Assembly: GCA_950295325.1 (NCBI GenBank)
Contig: OX485808.1
Span: 35,918,527-35,982,526, forward strand
Direction: 5' to 3'
DNA length: 64,000 nt
DNA from: Polytrichum commune
Taxonomy: Eukaryota > Streptophyta > Polytrichopsida > Polytrichales > Polytrichaceae
A program made the translations under genes and the position numbers. The notes under the pieces were generated by a model. The model was given only the letters and a program-made list of their open reading frames with translations. It made no database searches and had not been told where the DNA came from. This document shows, in pieces, positions 3,101 to 55,570 of this stretch (positions within the stretch are counted from its first letter, which is position 1; each line of letters begins with the position of its first letter).

Positions 3101-4702
3101 AGTATTCTCTTCACACCCACATGCACCTCGATGTGCCATGCGTTCCAGCATTTCTATCGCATCAGTCACCTGCCATTTACACACAATCAACAGAAAACCC
3201 AGAAGCCCTCTGCATCGAAAACTTTTCCAAATAATAAAAATAAATACAACTCGACTAAACTGTCAGGGAGTCGAATTAATTTATTCATTGGCCCAATACC
3301 GACTTGACGACAGGCACCTTTGCAGCTGTCATGATACCTTGTATCTTTACCCAAAAAGTGTAACCAAAGACATTTTTCAAGTATTTCCAAGACCAACGTT
3401 GGGTTTCTTCGTTGATACAAGTAAATATAGCGCTCTTGGACAGTATTTCTTGATTTGAGTTCCTCAATTTTCCTCAAAGCTGTTAGCTCAAAACGCTTCC
3501 TCTAAAATTGTTGGGTCGAGATTCACAAACACAGTCATCACAAGATGCCCAAGGGAAATATCCTTCTAGGGAAATATCCTTCTACAAATAGTAAACCAGG
3601 GTCTTCTACTTAGTTCCATTCTTATTGCCTCCCACTATGCGTACACACTGACATTCTCAGTACTCTCGCCCTTTAGCACTCCAGGAAATTAAGCGACTTT
3701 TGTTTCCACAGAACTACAACAGAAATCTAAACCAGAAATTCCTTGATATCTCTTTGCCGGTGTATTAATAGAGTTATCATTTAACTCAATTAAGACTCTT
3801 CGTTGGGAGTTGGTCCCCAATGAATTTCCATTTGGTTGTTTTGTGTACAACATCAATGATTTCTTTCAAGATGTGGTGCATGCTAGGAGGTAGTCTTTGA
3901 ATTTGAAAGGAAGAGCAACATATTTCGGTTTATTGAGGGCCAGACTCGTATTAGCACCTCTTGGCATGCCAAAAGAATTTGGGTGTCAATGAACCGATAT
4001 AGAGTGCTCTTCATTCAAACCTCCACACTACCTCCAATCATGCACCAAAACCTACAAAACATGGAAGATGTTGAATGCAAAACAACCAACTCCCGACCAA
4101 AATTCATGTTAAGTTATCCTCCAACTCAACATATGAGCCTATTTAATATCGGCTTCCTGAGTATGTGATCTGTGCCATTCACATGTCCAATTACCTGCAA
4201 CATAATTTTCCGATGATCTGTCTGTAGTGTCAAAATTTACGCAGTTTAGTTTGCACAGAAGGAACCTAAAAGTGCTGATGCTTACAATTTTCCGGTTGGG
4301 TTGAGCCGAAAGCTCGGCCACAAAACCCACACCGCAGGAATCCTTGTCGAAGGAGGGGTCATAGAGACCCATATCGCTCCTGTCTGCGGGCATCCCAAAC
4401 GAGGCAGCCGACATGACCGCCTTCAAGCCTAACCCCTTTGAAGGAGGACACCCATCTGCAAACTGCCACCATCCCCTGCTCCTCCTCCTTGTGAACAATT
4501 CGGATGTCAAATCGGATGGCTCCTTCCTAAGCCCTGTGAACCTTGATGTTGTTGTTCTTGTTGCCCTCAGGCTCTGCAGGGGCACACAACATGCTGCGGA
4601 GGGCAAAACCCTCCTTCTTGTTGGGCTCTGGGTTATGTGGGTCAGATTGAGCTGGGAGCTGAATGGCAAGGCATTGTTGGGTGAGTGCAGGATCGCCGCC
4701 AT
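149..4702 (-). CDS. GLT1: NADH-dependent glutamate synthase (NADH-GOGAT), 5' part, nine exons, truncated by the window edge
   Basis: Makes two glutamates from glutamine and 2-oxoglutarate using NADH, in plastids; the part seen is the N-terminal glutamine amidotransferase domain. Exons, in coding order, are 4702-4286, 3169-3050, 2559-2443, 2194-2042, 1890-1790, 1668-1572, 1226-1117, 669-566 and 328-149, about 466 codons, all with GT-AG borders and matching phases. The start at 4702 opens a basic, Ser/Thr-rich stretch of about 120 residues, read as a transit peptide plus propeptide. DSCGVGF follows, with Cys123 as the expected N-terminal nucleophile. Other landmarks are HRGACGCE and NTGDGAG (exon 2), VAESLGH and [13 protein letters not shown] (exon 4), [16 protein letters not shown] and GHNGEINT (exon 7), and [17 protein letters not shown] (exon 9). 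These fit the NADH form better than the ferredoxin form. Exon 9 ends in phase 1 at a donor at 148, so the synthase and NADH-binding parts lie outside the window. Intron 1 holds a dispersed repeat. Confidence 0.93.
3482..4130. repeat. Dispersed repeat inside intron 1 of the glutamate synthase gene
   Basis: About 250 bases here (roughly 3880-4115) match 31385-31640, which lies in intron 2 of the securin-like gene. Shared words include TAGCACCTCTTGGCATGCC, AATGAACCGATATAGA and CAACCAACTCCCGACCAAAA. The motif GGGAGTTGGT near 3800 is inverted against AACTCCCGACC near 4090, which hints at a terminal-inverted-repeat origin. No coding capacity was seen. The family is not recognised. Confidence 0.6.
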
Positions 4703-4800
4703 TGTGAGAAAATCTCGTCTCGTTGCTTCCGATGCTGGATTATGATTTCGTCATGTACTCAGAAAATTGGGTGTAAAAGGAAGCAGTTATTATGATGTTT

Positions 4801-19659: not shown

Positions 19660-22600
19660 TGGCATGTTATGGGTCTATTTGTTTAGATATGACAATTCTT
19701 GCATGTGTGTGATGGGTTGTTGATTCTCTAACCTTTGTTTGTGGACTAGTATAGAGTGTACATATTGTATGGCAATGATGTTGATTTGTCTAAATGTGTT
19801 TTTGATTTTCATGACAGGGAATTTAAATTTTGTTCCCAATTTTTTCATTGATGGGATGTGTGTTGTAGCTCTTGCACTTGCGGCTAGGACCATAAGTGGT
19901 GCTACATTCCATCATTTTGTTGTGATGTTGTTGATGAGTGATTGATATTTTGCCGTTTTCTTGTTTAGAGTTTCTGCAGCAAATCTATCATTGCAATATT
20001 TTAATTTTATAAATTGGATGGTGATATATGGTGTAGGGGCTTCCGGTGGTGGATGATTGTACGGGTGACCTATGATGCATAGTATGTCAGGCTTCCCCAG
20101 GGAGTGCACTGTTCAAGTACTGTATTTATACACGTGGGTGCACAAAAGGGGTATTATTTAAAACAAGCATGTACAAAATGCACGTACAAGAGACATATTG
20201 CTATTAAGCAAGAAGTAGATATACATGAGGCTATAGAAAAATATATGTAAAGTACGCATTTACGCGTTTACGCGTTCAAGTCAGACCTGGACCAAGAATC
20301 ATGTGTTTTTTCATCCACTAAGTAACGATTTTATAACTAAAAATCCATGATTTGATATTATACATATAATAGGGCCATATTTTTGCATTTCCAAACATTT
20401 GTACACATGTTATATACAATTTCTGTATTTGTTTTTGGACCCTTGTGTACGTATGGAAATGTATTTTGAAGCAATGAGATTTGTAAGTATATTGCTTGAT
20501 TTTAGCAAAAATAAAATGTATACAGGGGTATTTTAATAAGGGGCATGCACGCACGTGATGCTTGGTTTTAGTGAATAGTGCACTCCCTGAGCAGGCTTCA
20601 ACCTCGTGTTGCAGTGGCACCTTTGGGCACCGCATGTGCACTGTAGTAGCCATGTTGGTATTGTGTTTTCTTGGGGTATTCCATTGTTTGTGCCTACATT
20701 CATAAGTGTGTAATGTCTGGATATTTTATTTGATATGATAAGTTTACGTAGTTTCCATACAACTTTGTTGTGCCTTTTTGTTATTAGTGCATGAATGTGT
20801 GATTGTTTGCATTTGAGTAGTACGTGTAACCATGTGTCTGCATCTGATGAGTTGCAGATAAGACATGTCTTTGATGGGTAGGCTTATCTCCTAAAGAAAA
20901 GTTGTTTCCGCACGTGGCGCATATATTGTCCCGTTAGGAATTTCACTAGGCACGTTTTTTGTTTATATGTGATAGAGGGGTTTTTCTAGAAGTCGTTTGA
21001 TAATATCTTGTCAATAGCTTCGTTTTCAAGCCACTTATGTAATTGGTGTGTTTGATTTGCTATAACTTCTAGGTTATGCTTTTTATCATATTTGAGGACG
21101 TATTTTCCAAGGTGTCGGATGGGGCCTTTGTCTTGTGTCTCTTGCTTTGAGTGCCACCAATCTTTTGGAAGGTAGTATGGTGTAGGGTGTGCATGTTTGT
21201 ATGGGGTTGCAACGTTTCTATTATCTAGTTCGCACCCCTCTTTGGCTAGCACATATGCTTGTTCATTGCCTTTTATGTTGGTGTGGGCTTTGACTTTATG
21301 GAGTGTAGTTGTTTGTGTGCGATATGTTAACATTTTGGCCATAGATTCGAGGATATTTTTATCTGGGTGGTTGTTATGCACAGTTGGGTGTTTGATTTGT
21401 GTGTTTAGTAGGTATAAGACATTGAGGCAGTTTGTGAAGATATGTGTTGGTTCATCACGAAATGTGGTGGTGAGGAGGTGGAGGGTGTGGTGTATGGCCA
21501 TTATTTCAGCTCGCAATATATTTTGTAGTCCTAGTAGTCTTTATGTGATTCTTAGGTTTTTAATGGGATTGTAAATGCCATATCCTGCCTTTTCACGTTT
21601 CCAGTGTCCTTGAATTGTTTCTTTAGGTGGTTTGAATGACCCATCTGTGTAATAACAAAATTGTGGTGGATTTTTGAGGGGTAGACATTGTTCTAGGTTG
21701 ATGACGAGTGGGATATTTATTTATGGTTTGGGTGATTGATGGGGGGGGGGGGATATGTGAGTTTGGACCATTTTGTACTACGGTTCATTGGGGTGTCTTT
21801 TGGCATGGTTTTCTATTCTAGGCTCAATTCGTAATTATGGTGGTATTGTTGGCTCTTCGTATATGATGGTGTCAACTTTGAAGTGTGTTATGACATGCGA
21901 ATACGGGAAGGAGCCTTTGTGGGGATTAAGGTTGTGGTACCAATTTGGATTTGTTGTTATTAGTGTTGCAACTATGTTTGGGTTATTTTTGGCTGCAAGT
22001 TGTGCCCAATGGAGGGCTTGTTGGGCTTCGTTTTCTATATGTGGGTGAGTGTATCAGTTACCTTGTTATTTGTGTTGGAACGCTATTCCTATTAATCCAA
22101 ACACACCATCCCGAGGGAATGGGGAGTAGAATTGTCTGAGTGTGGTAGAACATTTTATTGGTGAGGAGAAGAGTGTGATATCTAGGAGTCTATGAGGTGT
22201 TCAAGGATGGCATTTGGGAGCGTGTATTGTGAGAGTTTCAAAGGGTTGATTTTGGATGTTCTATATTTGTATCTCTAATATAACCATGCTACTTCCGTCT
22301 CAAATGCTTGCGTGGGAGGTTCTAGGTTTAGTGGTCCATTAATGATGCTTGATATTGTTTTCATAGCCATTGTAGCCTCTGTTCAGGGATGGTGATCAAG
22401 TGACGGCCAATGTTGTCGTAGATGTGTGATATACCATGTTGGCTTGGAATGGTGCTTTGTGTGTAGGCGATGTCACCTTCTGGGTTACGTTCGTTGGTGT
22501 GGATGTGACATAGGGGTATGGTTTGTGGTGAGGGGATATATCTTGTGTCTTTCGTTTGTTCTTGGTTGAAGTTTGATTGTAGTATGCTAGTGAAGTGTTG

Positions 22601-29469: not shown

Positions 29470-29949
29470 AGCCCACGGCCTAACTGCTTGCTTCCCTCCT
29501 CACGTTTCCCCTTCCCCTTACTTTTCTTTCCACCACCTGCCATCGCAACTTTCTTCCCTCTTCCGCCACGTGCCATTTCTTTCCAATATCTTTCCAACCT
29601 CGCCTAACTCTCGTTTCTTTCCAACACCAATCTCTTTATCTTTCTACCGTAGCGTCTCCCGAGGCAGAGAAGAGAGCCGTTACAACCCCCCTCTCGCATT
29701 CCTTGCTCCTCTTCTTCACCGTTTTTCGATCGCATTGCTGCCCCCACACACTTCCTTGTCTCAATCTTCTCTTCTCACACTTGACTCAGAAATCGGTTCT
29801 TTCGTGTACTCCAGCACTGAGACTCTGCGATTGTGAGCTCCTCTCTTGTGTTTTCACTCTGTATTGTGCGTCTTTGGGTTGTGGGTTTTGGGGTTATCGT
29901 GGTTTGGGCACCGTTGGGATCTTCTGAGGGTGTTGCAATTTGAGGAAAG
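29470..29949 (+). promoter_or_regulatory. Pyrimidine-rich leader and promoter region of the securin-like gene
   Basis: Strongly C/T-rich DNA (CTTTCC, CTTCTTC and TCTCTT runs) leads to the start codon at 29950. A TAACGG core, on the minus strand at 29677-29682, resembles the MSA site bound by three-repeat MYB factors in plant G2/M genes. Such a short core occurs often by chance, so this is only suggestive. No TATA box was identified. Confidence 0.35.
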
Positions 29950-32900
29950 ATGGCGTTGCGTGTGAGACCTCGAGCTCCCCAGGACGAAAATGCTGCCATG
30001 CCTCACCTCTCAGGTTCGAAATCTGCCCTGAAATTTGTTCTGGAAATTGCCCCATTTGATTAGAGTGATGTGTTGGGGTGTTTCTTTGTGATTATGTGGT
30101 ATTGGGTTATGCGGGTTAGGGTGGTTTGTGTGTTTTCAGCGTGTGTGGTTATGTTCTCACGTTGCATTTGTACAACCTCTAATTGGTAAGGAAGTAGTTA
30201 CGTTTGGTTGATGTGGCCCTCGTAGTCAACGAGGGCGGGTTAATTGCAAAATTGGAAGGTGCGAAAAGGAGAGCATTGTTAGTTTGTTGTAGCCCAAAGA
30301 TAGCCATGTACTGGACGACATTGAGTTGAGGGGAAAGCTCATGTAGTGATCCTTTCATGTTCTTCTGAGCTTCTGTGAGAGAGATTTTTCCACTATAATT
30401 GAAAGTGATAGGTATGAGAGCTCATGGAGGAGGTGATGTACCATTAGATACTGACGTGGTAAGAGGAGATAGTGTAGTTGGATGTCATCACAAGTATCTG
30501 GGGATAAGTGCAGAGGAGAGAAGAATGTTACACCCTAGGACTGAAACCAGAACAATCATCAGAATTTCATGTCCCAAAGTGTGAAATGTGAACAAGAAAG
30601 AAAGAAAGGAACATGATCGGTGTTTTAGTATCTTCTGCTATTGGCGGGGAAGAGTTGAAGGACTTGGGAAGGTTGAGATGTTGGTGTCATTCTCTCTGCA
30701 ACTGACATTCTCATTTAAGGGTTCCTTCGAATCGGTTTTGAGTGTGTGACTTGTCCAGATTTCTTAGGACTCATCAAATTCTAGCCAATTTGACCATTTT
30801 TCATGTACTCACATGCGACTTTTCCAAGATTTCAATATGTTTGTTGGAAGCAATATCACCTTAAAAACTGACATGATAGAGACTGACATGTTCGCATACC
30901 CAAAGCAGGCAAGATGCAGGTCAGTGGAGGGATGATGCCTATGATGGGCAAAACTGGCGGCCTAAAGCAACAACAGCAAGGCGGCAACCCGGAGAGGAAG
31001 AAGCTTTCGAACATTACCAACATCACGAACGCCCTGAAACCCGTGGGCGCCAATTCCAAACCACCTCTTAAGATTTCAGACTCCGGGAACTCGTCGTCAA
31101 AAACTGTGAAACCTCGTGTCCCTCTTCGCAACATCACTAACGAGAATGCCGTACCAGGGCAATTCTCCCCGAGCAATGCTCCTTCGAAAGACCTCAAGCA
31201 GGTATGCCTACCTAAATATGTATGAAGTGCATTATCAAAACTTTCTACTACCGCCGCAAGATTAAACTGTACAACATACTGAGTTGGAGCTGTAACTTCA
31301 ACTCACTGGGACTCTCCTTCGGGAATTGGTCCTCTATGGTTTCCCATGGGTTGGTTAGCATGCAACATCCACTTGCGGTGCATGGTCGGAGGTAGTGTTC
31401 GAATTTGAATGAAGAGCAACCTATTTTGGTTAATTGAGGGCTACACTTATTTTAGCACCTCTTGGCATGCCAAAATGAGTTTGACCCCCAATGAACCGAT
31501 ATAGAATGTTGAACTTCGCTCAAACCTCCACATCTAATTCGAGCATGCACCGAAAACCTACCGAGGTTGGATAGTGTTGTATGCAAATCAACCAACTCCC
31601 GACCAAAAGTCATGTTGAGTTTGAAGGATAACCGTAATGCGTCCAACTCCCGACCAAAAGTCATGGTGAGTTTGAAGGATAGCCGTAATGCGTACAACAT
31701 GCTGACTTGGAACTTCTATCCTTCCCTTACCATTGATGATGAATAGTAGGAACATACATTTCTTCAAGTGTGGCTTAATTAGAATTAGGTGACTGTCGCT
31801 TATTCCTAATTCAGAACATTGCATATCCGAATGTGTAGGCACCGGCGAAACCCAAGACTGTTGGGCCGAAATTGGAGACACCAAAGTCGGAGGAGCCAAA
31901 ACCATGGGCGAAATTTAGTGCCCCTCTTGCTGATCCGGAGATGGAGAAACTTGTGCAAGAATGGGCCGATTTGGGGATTGAGGAAACTGCAGGCGCCACT
32001 GGTGATGAACTGGATGCTCTTCGCAGACAGCGAGAAGACAAAGGTAGCCAGTTATGCGCTGGGCTCATTTTTCATTGACCTTATTCGGCAGTAGTGTTGT
32101 TGTAAATGAATTGGAGAGAACTGAAGGACCTGTTTTCAAATGCAGACTATGTACATGGGCAGTAAAATACCTCATGTGCTCTTCTTGGGTTTTGTGAGTG
32201 CAGAAATTGAGGAGCGAGTGGCTGCAATAAGAGCATACCGCATGCCACTGCCGTCCTTCTTGTTCCACAATGATGATGTCAGTTCCTCTCTACCTCGGTC
32301 CGAACTTGTCAACAGATTCACAAATTATATACCTCTACCAGTTCTCCATTGATGCAAAAACCTGAAGAAAGTTGGTAGCAAAATTGACTATGTGTATGTA
32401 GTACCTGTGTGGCTCTAACTACTTGCAAGTTAAATTCATCTGTAACCGGCTAAAGTGAAATGCACATTACAAGATGTAGTGCGGGTGTATGGTTCCAATT
32501 CAGCAAGACGGTAAGCAGACATTGTCAATTGGGGTGCTCGCGACGATCATCAAGGTCGAAACAGTGCTGGAACCATTATATACCGTGCTAGACATTGTAC
32601 AATGGGGCATGCAGGTTGGCAAAATGATAACGGGGCATGATTGATCGATTGTATGCACAGGGTTTGGAGATGAAAGAAGTGCTGGAAATGGATCCTTATG
32701 AATTCACTGCAAGTGCTGTCCCCGAAATACCATTCCCAGGTGCGCTAATTTGACCAATTCCCTCTTTGTCTTCATAAATGCAGTGGGAGTCTTCTCATTG
32801 GTTGCTACAAACAACTAGAGCTCAAGCTCAAGCTTGTAAGTTTGAGGGGCCTAACTAACAGAATATGAGCCCTTACATGTGCCGATTTGGTGGAGCTTCG

Positions 32901-33458
32901 TCTCAAGGTTGGTCCCCGTTTTTTAAGATTAATTTTCAACTTCCAAGTCTGAACTTGAACTTGTAGTAATGTCAAGTTCGATGACTACAGGTTCAAGTAT
33001 GGGCTTGAATTTGATATCAGTCTACAATAATTTGGAACAGGAGCCCCAACATTTTCGGCACGAACAAGGACCCAAATTGATTTACCTTGGTCCACCAAAC
33101 TTGCAACCTTGAGCTTTAGCACAAGCTACATGTGGCTGGCCCCTTCAGCAGGGTTCCAAATTTCAAGTAGAAAATCAGGGTTGTTGATGTGTATTCACCA
33201 ATGCGACTGCAATGTGAAGAGGAGCTCAAATGCATAATAAATTTGCAAAGTGTATGTCTCAGGAAAATTTAATTCTCACATGTTAACCTTGCTGCAGAGA
33301 TGGACTGGGGCAAGCCAAGCATTCCTCTTGACGAGTTGCTCGCCTATACTTGCTCTGAAGACGATATCCCAAGCATTCCTGAGGACTGGCACATTGTGAA
33401 GCACCTGCCTGTGCAGAAACCAGTGCAGCGAAGGCCCCCTCCACGGACATGGCTGTAA
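29950..33458 (+). CDS. Securin-like (PATRONUS-type) APC/C substrate candidate, 291 residues, six exons
   Basis: Exons are 29950-30013, 30909-31201, 31839-32043, 32204-32277, 32661-32739 and 33298-33458, with GT-AG borders and phases that join without error to TAA at 33456-33458. Seen: PQDENAA near residue 11 (a DEN box); two destruction boxes of form RxxLxxITN, RKKLSNITN and RVPLRNITN; a basic, proline-rich middle; an acidic part with ADPEMEKLVQEWADLG; and an acidic C-terminal patch (PLDELLAYTCSEDDIPSIPEDWHI has the most marked charge). No enzyme domain, cyclin box or membrane segment was seen. A DEN box followed by D-boxes in a small, otherwise disordered protein is the layout of plant PATRONUS securins, which hold separase inactive until the APC/C destroys them. 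The assignment is inferred from these degrons; another APC/C substrate is possible. Confidence 0.6.
31260..31720. repeat. Dispersed repeat in intron 2 of the securin-like gene, with a short tandem duplication
   Basis: The same repeat as in intron 1 of glutamate synthase (shared TTTTAGCACCTCTTGGCATG, ATGAACCGATATAGA, AACTCCCGACCAAAA). At its right end a unit of about 47 bases starting AACTCCCGACCAAAAGTCATG is present twice in a row (about 31600-31690). Confidence 0.65.
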
Positions 33459-34034: not shown

Positions 34035-34610
34035 TGAATGAATCTATTGGAAGCCGCTTTGTATGTTGACAACTTTTGTTCGAGAAGATGAAGGCTGCAA
34101 GGTTTTTCGTTTGTACTCGAGCAAAAGGAAAGGTAATGCAAGGGTTTTGTTGTATGTATTCAAGAGGACAGGTGTCTCTGCTGACAAAAAAAGGTTTAAT
34201 TGTTTGTAGTCCATCGCCTTTCACTAAAACCACTGGAGTGTCTAAATTTATTGGAAGCCACTTTGTACGTAGAGTATGTGATTTGTGGACTAAATTATAT
34301 TTCTGAGAGATGAAAGCTGCAAGGGAATTAATTGTATGTATCCAGGTAAGAAGAAAGGATCATGTGCTTGCAAGGGTTTGAGCTGTTTGTAATATATCGC
34401 CTTTCACGAAAACCACTAATCTCAAAATGCCATCCATCCACTGCAGTTCCATGCCCCTTTGTATGTACAGTATGTAATTTGTGGACCAAATTTTCTTCTG
34501 AGAGACGAAGGCTTCAAGGGATTTAGTTGTATTTTTAAGTAAGAGGAAAGGTTTCTGTGCTTCCAAGGGTTTTAGCAGAATCATCAAAATGCCATCCATC
34601 CACTCGAGTG
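34035..34610. repeat. Tandem repeat downstream of the securin-like gene, about 190-bp unit, three copies
   Basis: Each unit contains GAAGCCACTTTGTATGT or a variant, GTATGTAATTTGTGGACC, GAGAGATGAAAGCTGCAAGG, GTGCTTGCAAGGGTTT and CGCCTTTCACGAAAACCACT. The units have diverged and lost segments. No conserved reading frame. Confidence 0.65.
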
Positions 34611-53421: not shown

Positions 53422-55070
<1,649 letters not shown>

Positions 55071-55570
55071 CTTGACTAGATCGAACTAACGAACCGGAAG
55101 CAAATCTTTCTAGAATGCGCCCCTGAGCAGCTCGCTAGAATGCAAAAGAGCTTGCGAAAGCTCCGATCCGGGGAAGAAGGAATGCGGAGCGAGTGTGTGT
55201 GGAGCCGATATGTGTTGCACCTCGTCGACACTCAGAAGGGGCACAAAGTCGGCCCCGAAACACACTGGCTATGGCCGAGGCTGGGTGAGAGACATAAAGC
55301 AAAGCGCAAGCGCTTCGGTGGGGCCAGCCGAGAGGGATTAGGTTAACTCGCACGAGATCTTGACCGTCCGTGACCGGATCCAATGGCTGGTTGTGCGGGC
55401 AGCACAAGTGAAATTTTCCAGGCACAGCCTGCCATATTCCAAAACGTCCAGAAGGTACACTTCCCGCGCAGATCGTCGTGCTGAGATCTGACCGTTGGAT
55501 ACGGAGATCGGACGGTGGGTACTGGTGAGCAGCTGGCCCTACAGGGCCAGCGATGCTGAGGCGGTGACCG
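55071..55570 (-). promoter_or_regulatory. Beta-tubulin 5' flank
   Basis: GC-richer than the neighbouring intergenic DNA and free of recognisable repeats, consistent with a promoter and 5' leader. Open frames across it (for example 55135-55575, minus) have no family match and look like composition effects. No specific binding site could be supported. Confidence 0.4.

Follow-up and report, generated by a model that had tools for sequence, protein, structure and literature searches.

The question raised by this locus is whether the six-exon gene lying near the middle of a 64,000-nucleotide stretch of the Polytrichum commune genome (contig OX485808.1; the whole stretch is hereafter the window) encodes the securin of this moss. 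From its sequence, the gene is probably this plant's securin, with a probability that we put at about 0.7, and that reading rests on the architecture of the protein, on its promoter and on a securin-like core, not on membership of a recognised family.

In the gene model at 29950-33458 (+), all introns have GT..AG ends and the six exons join in consistent phase into 876 nt, encoding 291 residues and a stop codon, as the earlier note on this DNA had proposed:

29950..30013 (+), exon 1, residues 1-22, carrying the start codon and the DEN box at residues 12-14
30909..31201 (+), exon 2, residues 22-119, containing both D-boxes
31839..32043 (+), exon 3, residues 120-188
32204..32277 (+), exon 4, residues 188-212, flanked on neither side by an in-frame stop within 60 nt
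32661..32739 (+), exon 5, residues 213-239, holding the whole securin-like pseudosubstrate/LPE-type segment (residues 215-235)
33298..33458 (+), exon 6, residues 239-291 and the stop codon, encoding the acidic, proline-rich C-terminus

GC content is 0.46-0.59 in the exons and 0.42-0.43 in the introns and, in the chosen frames, five of the six exons meet an in-frame stop within 60 nt at each intron side, exon 4 being the exception. The donors of intron 1 (GTTCGA) and intron 5 (GTGCGC) are not close to the usual consensus. These two donors, the open surroundings of exon 4 and a splicing pattern predicted from DNA are what a mis-assembled model or a pseudogene would have in its favor; we consider such an explanation quite improbable in view of the phases being consistent over six exons, the GT..AG ends, the lack of internal stops and an exon GC content above that of the introns. 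The predicted gene model thus holds on the evidence of the sequence.

The degrons of the predicted protein are a DEN box, which begins at residue 12 of the 291, and two D-boxes encoded by exon 2:

30995..31021 (+), D-box 1, RKKLSNITN, residues 51-59
31115..31141 (+), D-box 2, RVPLRNITN, residues 91-99

The N-terminal DEN box and the two RxxLxxITN boxes of the earlier note are present, although the D-boxes are spaced by 40 residues and not by about 60, and its description of them as nearly identical was overstated, since they agree at 6/9 positions. These motifs exceed chance expectation. When the protein was shuffled 20,000 times, two R..L..[IVL][TG]N motifs never arose together, at least one arose 17 times, and a DEN fell within the first 25 residues 82 times. 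The window translated in all six frames amounts to 127,996 residues with stops counted, and the D-box pattern occurs in it twice, in both cases in this gene.

Comparable degrons were found elsewhere in the genome. The Cyclin_N profile gave 12 matches over seven places, and the D-boxes of the five places covered by our comparison were RRALGDIGN at three loci, all on C1, RRALAEIGN at one (L012) and RTALANVTN at one (L013). The D-box style of the candidate protein is, judging from these motifs, common in this genome. The three loci on C1, two of which are oppositely oriented and separated by about 17 kb, are:

C1:19436000-19443000 (L009), B-type cyclin-like, RRALGDIGN
C1:22323500-22330500 (L010), B-type cyclin-like, RRALGDIGN
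C1:22345000-22352000 (L011), B-type cyclin-like, RRALGDIGN, DEN absent

L009 and L010 carry ADENKRA ahead of the D-box. Because two of the three RRALGDIGN loci thus have both elements, a DEN box with a D-box is to be taken as the mark of an APC/C substrate and not of a securin specifically. The 291-residue protein itself gave no Pfam match to a cyclin box at E ≤ 10. Shared degrons of this kind are also what would be expected if the gene encoded some other substrate or regulator of the mitotic APC/C, one that is made at G2/M and removed by way of its degrons but does not bind separase, the securin-like segment described below then being a product of chance. D-boxes also occur in proteins of the OSD1/UVI4 type, which bear in addition a GxEN box and a Met-Arg tail, and a protein of this type would restrain the APC/C through its D-boxes; the candidate lacks GxEN and ends in RTWL instead of a Met-Arg tail, which makes this identity very improbable on the basis of these two features.

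Profile searches gave the protein no family. Neither Pfam (Securin, PF04856, included) nor the PDB sequences yielded a match at E ≤ 10, in agreement with the earlier claim that an enzyme domain is absent. The Pfam Securin profile found nothing in the genome either, a search that says little, as its controls also matched nowhere. A whole-genome search with the protein recovered all six exons at this locus and, at the sensitivity of that search, in which 14 candidates were scored and withheld stretches stood as N, no second copy of the gene. Two other weak matches were rejected as paralogues. The match at C2:28708739 (E 7.66) covered 93 residues of a 1001-residue frame, which are rich in Asn, Thr and Pro and contain neither DEN nor RxxL, and was considered noise, and that at C6:33102224 (E 2.6) was taken as noise by eye, at the DNA level only.

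Securins are very divergent proteins, and those of plants were reportedly recognised only recently, by Cromer et al. 2019. We compared the candidate with a single working version of the Arabidopsis PANS1 sequence. Over the first 110 residues the alignment scored 48, a value reached in 1/500 shuffles, and the stretch from DEN to D-box was matched DENA to DENA and RKKLSNITN to RKALNDITN. From this alignment, D-box 1 is likely the counterpart of the PANS1 D-box, and D-box 2 likely an addition. The score of the whole protein was reached in 17/500 shuffles, whereas its C-terminal half showed no similarity to the working PANS1 sequence beyond chance (118/500). With looser gaps, the C-terminus of the working PANS1 sequence gave scores reached in 68/1000 shuffles against the candidate and in 466/1000 against human securin. 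The working PANS1 sequence itself matched no Pfam family, and against the genome it had no match at E ≤ 10, this locus included.

The candidate and Arabidopsis PATRONUS1 and PATRONUS2 have in common a DEN box near the N-terminus and, after it, a D-box of the form RKxLx(D/N)ITN, with 39 residues from DEN to D-box in the candidate and 32 in the working PANS1 sequence, as well as a basic-then-acidic layout, the net charge of the working PANS1 sequence being +10 over residues 1-75 and -13 over residues 76-193. An N-terminal DEN with a downstream D-box, found in the candidate at 12, 51 and 91, is nonetheless non-specific, given its presence at the cyclin-like loci. The candidate differs from PATRONUS in its second D-box, in its length (291 residues against 193 for PANS1) and in a C-terminal part whose similarity to the working PANS1 sequence is no better than chance. 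Among the papers listed in a literature search, none was by title on a bryophyte securin, any bryophyte members given in Cromer et al. 2019 being outside its scope; a paper retrieved for PATRONUS and Marchantia deals in its relevant passages with Arabidopsis PANS1, and nothing was retrieved on a PANS1 pseudosubstrate for separase or on the DEN box of rice RSS1.

The C-terminal part provided a different kind of evidence. The separase-blocking part of human securin is described as comprising a pseudosubstrate (113-EIEKFFP), an NxLxPhiE motif and an LPE at 130, and yeast securin has VPE in place of LPE (PMC6858450; PMC10317155). When residues 113-133 of human securin (sequence identical to PDB 7nj1_B over 202/202 residues) were slid ungapped over the candidate, the best placement was EMKEVLEMDPYEFTASAVPEI at 215-235, with a score of 27, the next being 14. 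This score was reached in 17/2000 shuffles, a figure whose real significance is weaker because the resemblance had been noticed by eye before it was tested. The same human segment was also placed on frames that run from stop to stop over 60 residues or more; the best score was 23 across the window (18,623 placements) and 19 across 14 loci (30,114 placements), none attaining 27; the control is loose, as the frames are mostly non-genes, L001-L004 overlap the gene and the exon 5 frame, with 48 residues, was too short for inclusion.

In the human register, the segment has Glu at P6, Val-Leu at P2-P1 where the human protein has Phe-Phe, and VPE at the LPE position. A hydrophobic P1 (Leu) and VPE were thus found, whereas P4 is Lys instead of Glu and the strict NxLxPhiE is absent, being satisfied at Phi only. 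When the C-terminal parts of the two proteins were aligned locally with looser gaps, a different register was preferred and the score was not significant (reached in 250/1000 shuffles). The score of the full-length protein against human securin was reached in 82/500, and that of its C-terminal part against the whole of human securin in 24/500, but over a Lys/Pro-rich stretch outside the proposed core. An isolated [LV]PE turns up in 6654 of 20,000 shuffles. A relaxed core motif occurred in 2 of 20,000, which is not independent evidence because the motif was written with the candidate sequence in view.

The layout of charge follows that of human securin, with degrons in a basic N-terminal part and an acidic C-terminal part: net charge is +14 over residues 1-137 and -16 over residues 138-291 of the candidate, and +12 over 1-110 and -13 over 111-202 of the human protein. 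The 19 prolines in residues 138-291 bear out the description of the C-terminus as acidic and proline-rich. Both proteins share the ungapped resemblance across the pseudosubstrate-LPE segment, downstream of the degrons in each. They differ in KEN against DEN, in Glu against Lys at P4, in NPLDFE against DPYEFT and in LPE against VPE, and the candidate has no match to the Pfam Securin family. Yeast Pds1 (PDB 5u1s_B) resembles the candidate in having VPE downstream of the pseudosubstrate, as described in PMC6858450, and differs in its shorter spacing to VPE. Taken by itself, the exon 5 segment is suggestive, not conclusive, evidence for a securin.

For a different APC/C substrate speak the degrons shared with the cyclin-like loci, the lack of a family match in Pfam or PDB, and a securin-like segment that is short, found by eye, moderately significant and missed by gapped alignment. 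The same protein has no other Pfam domain that would place it elsewhere, its charge runs from basic to acidic, and the segment follows the degrons as it does in human securin, all of which argues against that identity and leads us to regard it as unlikely, though deserving some weight.

Upstream of the gene, we located a cluster of AACGG, the core of the MSA element, described in PMC8964727 as a target of MYB3R:

29677, 29719 and 29911 (-), three AACGG sites (span 29677..29915), preceding the ATG by 273, 231 and 39 bp

Among 6370 overlapping 300-bp windows across the 64 kb, six contain at least three AACGG, all of them at this cluster, and the Poisson probability of three AACGG in 273 bp at the rate of the window is 0.0012, for an interval whose length was chosen from the outermost site. 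Of the four flanking pyrimidines in the consensus, the three sites have 3, 1 and 3, so that the full YYAACGGYY is found at 0/3; the window contains four full sites, all away from the cluster. AACGG clusters were also detected at the three RRALGDIGN loci (L009-L011), with 4-6 sites per 300 bp; they precede the likely ATG by roughly 0.6-0.9 kb, a greater distance than in the candidate gene. L013 has up to four in 300 bp, which lie about 1.5-2.2 kb ahead of its D-box. At least three per 300 bp were absent at L002-L008, at L012 and at the separase locus L014, and the cluster of L001 is the candidate gene's own. The AACGG cluster therefore predicts G2/M expression of the gene. A plant securin, as proposed in the earlier note, remains the best reading on account of the exon 5 segment, the charge layout and this cluster, while the degrons that had been offered as the reason do not by themselves show a securin, shared as they are with cyclin-like loci.

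We infer that the candidate securin is expressed, degraded, and able to bind and inhibit separase. The protein would be produced at G2/M as a separase inhibitor, its basic N-terminal part presenting the DEN box and the two D-boxes to the APC/C with CDC20/CDH1 and its acidic C-terminal part lying stretched out along separase. EMKEVL (215-220) would serve as a non-cleavable pseudosubstrate, with Leu at P1 where substrates carry Arg, DPYEF as an NxLxPhiE-like contact and VPE as an LPE-like exosite contact; destruction driven by the degrons would then free separase at anaphase. We tentatively propose, at somewhat less than even odds, a bryophyte-grade securin that has an opisthokont-type pseudosubstrate and LPE/VPE core in the human register within a single exon, plus a doubled D-box, which would bridge the gap between the highly divergent PATRONUS proteins and the securins of animals and fungi, and would make the plugging of the separase active site ancestral. 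If this is true, the homology and mechanism of plant versus animal securins would become directly testable through a recognisable separase-plugging segment, with one securin and one separase as a defined pair for tests. The Pfam Peptidase_C50 profile matched the genome at one place, on C2 (three matches), whose frames contain AYLGHGSG and LLMGCSSG (the GHG and MGCSSG catalytic motifs); at E ≤ 0.001, the Cys part matched 11 distinct separase sequences of solved structure, the best at 4.3e-24.

Further observations concern the rest of the genome and of the window. Dynein heavy-chain matches numbered 13, counted exon by exon, with 12 over the cut-off, and fit a lineage having motile sperm; like the seven Cyclin_N places, they are compatible with a bryophyte. 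Just 3' of the gene, at 34040-34460, imperfect direct repeats (TTGGAAGCCGCTTTGTATGT, TTGGAAGCCACTTTGTACGT and similar ones) were spotted by eye. The open frame at 4139-4750 (-) presumably resembles the N-terminus of plastid glutamate synthase, judging from an 11-residue stretch, and its Pfam match, sub-threshold only, is to a different family. An open frame at 20986-21540 (-) has an RNase H domain (E 4.4e-8) and is probably a retrotransposon remnant, and gene pieces with Tubulin and Tubulin_C domains lie at 53422-55085 (-), a tubulin that we take from its start to be of the beta type.
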